Source: Glutamicibacter halophytocola
Lineage (GTDB): Bacteria; Actinomycetota; Actinomycetes; Actinomycetales; Micrococcaceae
Assembly: GCF_001302565.1 (NCBI RefSeq)
Contig: NZ_CP012750.1
Coordinates: 1,860,001-1,924,000 of the forward strand
DNA length: 64,000 nt
Direction of reading: 5' to 3'
Part shown: positions 15,556-18,743 of the stretch, one piece after another
Layout: each line of letters opens with the position of its first letter
How positions within the stretch are numbered: the stretch's first letter is position 1
Notes under the pieces: generated by a model
The model's database searches: none
What the model was told of the DNA's origin: nothing
What the model saw: the letters and a program-made list of their open reading frames with translations, nothing else
Made by a program: the position numbers and the translations under genes

Positions 15556-17371
<1,816 letters not shown>

Positions 17372-17386
17372 TCGGCCTGTAGACCA

Positions 17387-17443
17387 CTAACGGTCCTTTG
17401 GATCCTCGCAGCGGCTGAGTAGTAGTAGAAGCTCGAAATGCAC
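17387..17443 (-). CDS. leuA leader peptide (18 aa, five consecutive Leu codons)
   Basis: The frame reads VHFELLLLLSRCEDPKDR and then TAG. The Leu run is CTT CTA CTA CTA CTC, and CTA is rare elsewhere in the window. A run of regulatory codons in a short frame ahead of the matching biosynthetic gene is the hallmark of ribosome-mediated attenuation. The frame has no ribosome binding site; its GTG lies exactly where transcription should start from the -10 at 17450-17455, so it is probably read from a leaderless mRNA. The peptide ends 88 bases before the leuA ATG. Confidence 0.85.
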   Translation of the reverse strand: MHFELLLLLSRCEDPKDR

Positions 17444-17449
17444 GAATTG

Positions 17450-17480
17450 AGCATAACACCGAGGATTCGGCTGTGCTCAA
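17450..17480 (-). promoter_or_regulatory. Promoter of the leuA leader
   Basis: On the minus strand TATGCT (17450-17455) ends 6 bases before the GTG of the leader peptide, the spacing expected for transcription starting at the G. TTGAGC (17475-17480) is a candidate -35 with a rather long 19-base spacer. Confidence 0.55.
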
Positions 17481-17596
17481 ACTTATGTCGGCGCTGTGTC
17501 ACATTGTGGACAGCAGGCGTGCCGGCGTCCCTAGACAGCCCGGGCCCGCCGGCGAAGAATGGGGATTGAACGGTACCGGCACAAGGAGGCTTGCAG

Positions 17597-18743
17597 ATGA
17601 AAGCGATCATCGTCGGCGCGGGAATCGCCGGACTGGTGGCTGCACGGCAGCTGGGCCTGGCCGGCTGGCAGGTGCTGGTGCTGGAGCGTTCGGCGGCGCC
17701 ACGCCCCGATGGATACATGATGGACTTCTTCGGGCCGGGAGTGGAAGCCTCCGAACGCATCGGCCTGCACCCCTACTTGGCCGAGGTGGCCTACCAGGTG
17801 GAAGCGGCCGAATACATGGATCCGGGCGGACGGGTCACCGCCAGCCTGGACTACCTCAAATTCGCGGATCTGGCCGGCGGCAATGTGCTCTCCTTGCTTC
17901 GCCCCGATATGGAGAGCGCGGCGCTCAAGGCCCTGGACGAGGTGGAGGCAGGCCGGGTGCAGCTGCGCTACGGCGTGCACATCGAGCGGATGGAGCGCCA
18001 CGGGGCGCAGGTGCAGGTCTGGCCCGGCGGCGGGCAGCCGGTGGAAACCGCTGACCTGCTGATCGGCGCCGATGGCATCCACTCGGCGGTGCGGGCCGCC
18101 TTCTTCGGGCCCGAGGAGGACTTCATCAGCCCGCTGGGGATGCGCGCGGCGGCCTTCATCGTGCACGAGCCGGCGCTGAACCGGCAGTTCAAGAACCGCT
18201 TCGTGCTCAGCGACACGGTGGATCGCACCGCGGGGATCTACGGGTTGCGCGACTCGGAAGTCGCCTCGTTCCTGGTCTACCGGCAGGATCCGCCGGCCAA
18301 GCTGGACGGGACCCGCGAACGCTTGCGCCGGATTTTCGCAGGCGCCGGCGGCCAGGTGGACCGTCTGCTGGAACTGTGCCCGCCGGATCCGTACGACGAT
18401 GCCGTCGCCCAGGTGCTCATGCCCTGCTGGCATCAGCGCGCCGTGGTGCTCATCGGCGACGCAGCCGCCGCGGTGTCCCTGCTGGCCGGGCAGGGCGGCG
18501 CTGGGCGATGCGCTGGGCACGGTCTCCAGCCCGGAGCAGCTGCCGGCGGCCCTGGATGAGTATGAACGGGTGATGCGGCCGAAAATTGCCACCGCGCAGG
18601 CTTCGGGGCGCCGGGCGGCCAACAGCTTCCTGCCACGCCGCAAGCTGGGCCTGCTGTGGCGCCGGCTGATCCTGCGCTCCACCAGGCTGCCGGGAATGGA
18701 TCGGATCATTGCCCGGCAGATCGTGAAGCGGCTTGCCAAATAG
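17597..18743 (+). pseudogene. FAD-dependent monooxygenase, frameshifted
   Basis: Flavin monooxygenase of the PHBH/UbiH-like group. The first frame has the FAD-binding GAGIAGLVAARQL, the acidic end VLVLERS, a middle DG motif (LLIGADGIHSAVR) and the start of the GD motif (VVLIGDAAAAVSLLAGQG). It then drifts and stops at 18559. The family continues in the +1 frame as GALGDALGTVSSPEQLPAAL to 18743. One extra G near 18497, in GGGCGGCGC, explains the break. ATG at 17597 has AAGGAGG 7 bases upstream. Third codon positions are almost always G or C, more so than in the neighbours. It could be a true pseudogene or a sequence error. Confidence 0.82.

Follow-up and report, generated by a model that had tools for sequence, protein, structure and literature searches.

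The window (the whole stretch of Glutamicibacter halophytocola DNA that was analyzed, 64,000 nucleotides) carries leuA, the gene for 2-isopropylmalate synthase, preceded by an 18-codon frame with five consecutive Leu codons (Table 1). The codons, the stop, the coordinates and the 88-nt gap between the leader stop and the leuA ATG (17298) were exactly as an initial annotation had described them, and the TATGCT hexamer that it had placed 6 nt before the leader GTG is present, followed by CAATTC and then the GTG. In the window, 28 long ORFs (read stop to stop) contained 1363 Leu codons, of which 35 (2.6%) were CTA and 13 were TTA, the rarer of the two. No Rfam family was detected at the gathering score in positions 17100-17650, the best score being 23.8 bits relative to a gathering score of 50. 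The leader is part of an element already described for leuA of actinobacteria, the LEU element (Seliverstov et al. 2005, PMC1262725), which, in the accessible portion of that paper, is also composed of a Leu-run frame and downstream pairing strands located before leuA.

Table 1. Features in and around the leuA leader of the window.
Feature	Position	Strand	Basis or remark
leuA, 2-isopropylmalate synthase	15556..17298	minus	NCBIfam TIGR00970, 828 bits (cut-off 697)
P0 3' strand CGAAAUGCA, over leuA start codon	17294..17302	minus	
GGGG of leuA Shine-Dalgarno (SD) region	17309..17312	minus	
CCCC, predicted anti-SD strand (P3)	17339..17342	minus	pairs with GGGG in 18/18 own-genus sequences
P2 3' strand UGGCC, whose pairing would form an H-type pseudoknot together with P1	17341..17345	minus	complementarity
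P1 3' strand CCUCGUCGCGG	17359..17369	minus	
P2 5' strand GGCCG	17373..17377	minus	complementarity
Local hairpin GGACC/GGUCU around stop codon	17381..17396	minus	RNAalifold, 18 own-genus sequences
Leader peptide frame VHFELLLLLSRCEDPKDR, 18 codons	17387..17443	minus	predicted leaderless
TAG stop of leader frame	17389-17387	minus	
P1 5' strand CCGCUGCGAGG, within leader frame	17404..17414	minus	
Sensor codons CTT CTA CTA CTA CTC	17417..17431	minus	
P0 5' strand UGCAUUUCG, at predicted transcript 5' end	17434..17442	minus	
GTG start of leader frame	17443-17441	minus	
-10 hexamer TATGCT	17450..17455	minus	6 nt before start codon in 18/18 own-genus loci
Imperfect palindrome TGTCCACAATGTGACAC	17496..17512	minus	candidate transcription factor operator

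The leuA gene was located in 56 of 58 genomes, including the own genome, and 56 leuA upstream regions were read (a second leuA copy in G005 was included and a partial match in G044 was left out). A leader was scored when TAnnnT stood 4 to 9 nt before the start of a frame containing LL[L/I] or more. By this rule, 50 loci had both run and hexamer, three had reduced or split Leu runs (L023, L033 and L053, added by hand to give 53 loci) and three had nothing. The latter (L022, L037 and L054) lack a visible element, and their genomes also lack a match to model R1, which suggests that the element has been lost in some lineages. The comparison supports the leader peptide claim of the initial annotation: within the own genus a nearly identical leader was present in all 18 loci. 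The check set beforehand, whether close relatives have lost the Leu run, detected no loss: all 18 loci have four or more Leu codons in a row, with an Ile in place of the fifth Leu in four of these (L011, L012, L013 and L016). Ile or Val also occurs within the run before leuA beyond the own genus, for example in L053 and L182. Application of a looser rule to 80 named GTDB loci, 79 of which had upstream sequence, detected a leader in 78/79; this set is not independent of the first, as at least two of its contigs share their lengths with contigs of the first set (L131 with L020 and L164 with L031). Model R1, built from Micrococcales, produced 78 matches in the named loci, 77 of them upstream of leuA. 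Matches were also observed in 218 of 245 family genomes (E ≤ 0.1), 85 of 99 order genomes (E ≤ 0.001) and 32 of 296 phylum genomes (E ≤ 0.01), samples that share some genomes and to which stricter filters apply; these counts are of matches, a position before leuA being confirmed for part of them. At least one genome (G033) was missed by R1 though its leader is readable (L031).

A TAnnnT hexamer was present 6 to 7 nt before an in-frame ATG or GTG in 51 of the 53 loci (33/35 outside the own genus), as compared to 0 to 1 of 53 loci for four control hexamers scored with an equally free choice of start. One of the 18 own-genus loci has TATGTT as its hexamer. The named GTDB loci had it at 6 to 7 nt in 77/79, a figure obtained by choosing the best start and having no control. 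SD-like 4-mers preceded the chosen leader start in only 2 loci out of 50, neither of them the window. TATGCT, which has no -35 match, was not picked up by a simple promoter scan, whose sole match was on the plus strand. As the -10 spacing is conserved, the start point is predicted to lie at the leader GTG. On this sequence evidence the leuA leader transcript would begin at 17443 and be leaderless, as proposed in the initial annotation, and a leaderless start is likely across the order.

The same annotation had held that this arrangement makes ribosome entry unusual, a view that is not supported: leaderless transcripts are reported to make up 17% of primary transcription start sites in Streptomyces lividans (PMC8079986) and 33% of mRNAs in Corynebacterium glutamicum, and, according to a review, S. 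coelicolor and M. smegmatis start translation of leaderless mRNAs at GUG with greater efficiency than E. coli does. Nor is the leaderless state of a leuA leader new, as the S. lividans leader LeuL1, MRFGLLLLSCRGEGL, has already been reported to be leaderless (PMC8079986). By the description available there, LeuL1 shares with the window leader a Leu run, the position before leuA and the lack of a typical Rho-independent terminator; it differs in sequence and start codon, and its start is based on RNA-seq while that of the window is predicted. Consecutive Leu codons are also reported upstream of leuA in C. glutamicum and C. diphtheriae (PMC4046766, PMC5784534), although for C. diphtheriae the accessible text states that no transcript start could be assigned, unlike the predicted start here. 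A further likeness, by description only, and a precedent for the mechanism favored below, is found in the polycysteine attenuators of mycobacteria, likewise leaderless (Canestrari et al. 2020, as cited in a review), short frames with repeated codons for the product of the operon, which differ in sensing cysteine and in preceding other operons.

The codons that follow the Leu run can pair with a downstream strand to form helix P1, with one U.C mismatch among 11 pairs in the window and one mismatch (U.C or U.U) in each of the 18 own-genus sequences. P1 was aligned for 28 of the 53 loci, of which 4 were from the 18 own-genus loci, while 11 others with unusual spacing or strands were left out. In this alignment 96.8% of cells were paired, the strand ends having been set from the pairing already found, as compared to only 41 to 70% for slid partners. 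Changes on both sides were observed in 6 of the 11 pairs, and none of 500 shuffles attained the covariation score. The simplest explanation of the conserved peptide tail (SRCED here, SCRGE elsewhere) is that it reflects the coding of this helix strand; P1 offers a reason for residue conservation after the Leu run, namely that these residues encode a helix strand. Flanking P1 are GGCCG and UGGCC, which could form a second helix and, with P1, an H-type pseudoknot as in the published LEU element. Their pairing was the best pick within a search window and has no control, and P2 had a probability near 0 in nested folding, a model that is unable to form pseudoknots. The stability of the whole leader was not unusual (z of -1.16, with 28 of 200 shuffles being as good).

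A nested RNAalifold fold of the own-genus sequences contained P1, the stop-codon hairpin, the CCCC:GGGG pairing (18/18) and a pairing of the transcript 5' end with GAAAUGCA at the leuA start (17/18). In this consensus both the SD and the start codon of leuA are paired. The latter helix, P0, consists of a perfect 8 to 9 bp in 17 of the 18 own-genus loci, with energies of -10.5 to -13.0 kcal/mol, part of this pairing arising because both starts contain UGCA. In the remaining locus, L018, both sides have changed, P0 is lost and the pairing falls to -6.8 kcal/mol. None of the 36 predicted own-genus pairs had a double change, so that P0 and P3 are without covariation support; the CCCC:GGGG pairing is invariant in 18/18. 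Permutation tests were performed on 29 loci outside the own genus, three of 32 having been dropped as no leuA start was found. The 5' end paired better with the leuA start than with permuted partners at a fraction of 0.013, one of 18 tests that were run; among the 16 loci of other families the fraction was 0.107.

The effect of a stalled ribosome was modeled by constrained folding of the 18 own-genus sequences, with an assumed ribosome footprint blocked and pseudoknots outside the model. Without a ribosome the leuA AUG had a mean unpaired probability of 0.06, which rose to 0.38 to 0.41 with a ribosome at Leu codons 5 to 8; in the window the values were 0.00 and 0.35 to 0.40. Predicted SD accessibility hardly shifted (mean of 0.21 to 0.24). 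A ribosome at the first two Leu codons left P1 in place (mean of 0.85 to 0.86), and the helix was lost only from codon 7. L018 showed the opposite behavior, its AUG being unpaired at 0.66 when free and 0.28 to 0.60 when stalled. A simple scan of positions 17200-17640 detected no terminator-like stem with a T run, such as the intrinsic terminator of a classical transcription attenuator before leuA. Translational attenuation is favored because the start was unmasked by stalling in the folding and because there was no terminator-like site. The LEU-element leader, transcribed from its GTG, probably mediates a leucine-dependent translational attenuation of leuA, and we infer control that is translational rather than transcriptional, operating by ribosome stalling and by masking and release of the leuA start region. 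Part of the modeling (the SD accessibility, P1 at the first Leu codons and L018) does not favor this reading, and caution is also due to the S. coelicolor leuA leader mutants, which are reported to be at odds with classical attenuation (PMC1262725).

Under this mechanism a 70S ribosome would load at the bare 5' end and read the leader. When leucine is plentiful, the ribosome would complete the leader and depart, P1 would fold and the SD would be masked by CCCC:GGGG, resulting in poor translation of leuA; in the own genus the leuA start codon would also be masked, by pairing of the 5'-terminal nucleotides of the transcript with CGAAAUGCA. When leucine is short, the ribosome would pause at the CTT and CTA codons and cover the transcript 5' end; further along the Leu run it would cover the P1 strand as well. 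The leuA start codon would then be freed and leuA made.

Several other accounts of this region were considered. Chance occurrence of the leader has some basis in the resampled sequence, as 10 Markov-1 resampled windows contained means of 1.4 LLLL and 0.3 LLLLL short frames per 64 kb, while the leader was the sole LLLL frame on either strand of the window (ATG or GTG frames of 8 to 40 codons). This explanation is refuted by the conservation of the frame, and the -10 geometry also argues against it, none of the Leu-run frames in the resampled windows having TAnnnT at 6 nt; its probability is negligible. A second account retains the base stem of the published LEU element, in which the Leu codons themselves, rather than the P0 and P3 strands, pair with the SD (PMC1262725). 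Outside the own genus the Leu:SD pairing was better than that of permuted partners in the same 29 loci and 18 tests (a fraction of 0.030, as for P2b:SD). In the 16 other-family loci, however, the fractions were 0.453 for Leu:SD and 0.363 for P2b:SD, and the mean z for Leu:SD over 50 loci was only -0.23. In the window this stem is weak, at -4.9 kcal/mol (z of +0.6, no better than with a shuffled SD), whereas the CCCC strand pairs with the SD at -10.0 kcal/mol (z of -1.5). Masking by the Leu codons is improbable here, where P0 and P3 could instead mask leuA.

Control could alternatively be transcriptional, with translation of the leader deciding whether transcription stops, by Rho or a terminator, before leuA. 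Ribosome-dependent attenuation with an intrinsic terminator has been reported for ilvB1NC of M. tuberculosis, and leaders without terminators could use Rho, as was suggested for cys operons (PMC1262725), but the lack of a terminator-like stem in the scanned region and an own-genus consensus fold that masks the leuA start region instead make this account unlikely, if less so than that of the base stem. Seliverstov et al. themselves take the view, naming ML1624 orthologues, that the RNA is the binding site of a regulatory protein and that the leader is not read as a sensor. This view draws on the phylogenetic pattern and on cited S. coelicolor mutants: leuA leader mutations there are reported to have some effect that is inconsistent with classical attenuation, and mutations of the Leu codons are said not to influence regulation (PMC1262725). 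An in-frame Leu run at a fixed distance from the -10 hexamer in 51 of 53 loci, three loci having reduced runs, speaks against it, and we regard a pure protein site as very doubtful.

LEU-type elements were also detected before genes other than leuA, with leuB, leuC and cimA being identified from family models or through resemblance to genes so identified. In six genomes of family f19, each with two R1 matches, an element lies before leuC (L111, L117, L118, L123, L125 and L126), the leader being read in three of the six. Elements before leuB, with cimA downstream, were present in G036 (leader MRHALILRCRGGA) and G051 (leader MARQLVILSSRGEFR); the gene between leuB and cimA is presumably ilvE, judging by the order of the genes and the appearance of its reading frame. 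In the two loci of this kind that were read, L109 (start) and L110 (end, minus strand), the leaders contain LIL and LVIL, and a short frame with an ALQESMD motif was seen by eye between element and leuB in both. The presence of LIL and LVIL in both of the leuB-operon leaders read would fit codon sensing, an argument weakened because Ile and Val also occur in the runs before leuA. R1 matches were further observed before divergent leuA copies of 48 to 50% identity (L050, L115, L116 and L121), and in G542 one precedes a LeuA_dimer-like gene. LEU-type elements precede small genes in L112 and L113; the L113 product matches LeuA_dimer (27.1 bits, cut-off of 24.9) and that of L112 had no Pfam match, and these genes are possibly stand-alone LeuA regulatory domains. 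The hexamer was not found 5 to 8 nt before the start in L109, L112, L114 or L121, the L114 leader being letter for letter the S. lividans leader reported to be leaderless (PMC8079986). The accessible part of the LEU element paper places the element before leuA and one transposase gene (PMC1262725), unlike the positions before leuC and leuB seen here. Literature titles and abstract openings, a set with subscription papers mostly outside it, mentioned no such element before leuC or leuB in actinobacteria. The leuC and leuB matches provide a natural comparison for a long-standing question, namely whether charged tRNA is sensed by the LEU element or a protein binds to it.

Upstream of the promoter hexamer lies an imperfect palindrome. 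It has 0 to 2 mismatches to TGTCCANNATNTGACAC and is located 50 to 52 nt before the leader start in all 18 own-genus loci; L045 and L046 have weak matches at 51 nt, with 4 to 5 mismatches. In the own genome it is the only exact match to TGTCCANNATNTGACAC; with up to two mismatches there were 12 matches versus 15 for the reversed control, and no leu gene was recognized by eye among the ORFs surrounding the next best site (one mismatch). The palindrome is possibly an operator for a transcription factor, which would add a second layer of control on leuA. The divergent FAD_binding_3 gene (17591-18559, plus strand) seems by eye to continue in another frame (18399-18743, plus strand; no Pfam match for this second piece) and looks frame-broken.

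A more tentative proposal, which we consider possible but less probable than not, is that the leaderless start forms a working part of the switch and that the LEU element is a portable sensor of branched-chain amino acids, with leuC and leuB-ilvE-cimA also under its control and codons adapted accordingly. Masking of the start codon is an easily tested prediction of the comparison. If the proposal is correct, then in the own genus the first nine or ten nucleotides of the transcript would serve both as the site of ribosome entry and as an antisense to the leuA start codon, and the ribosome reading the leader would directly unmask leuA.
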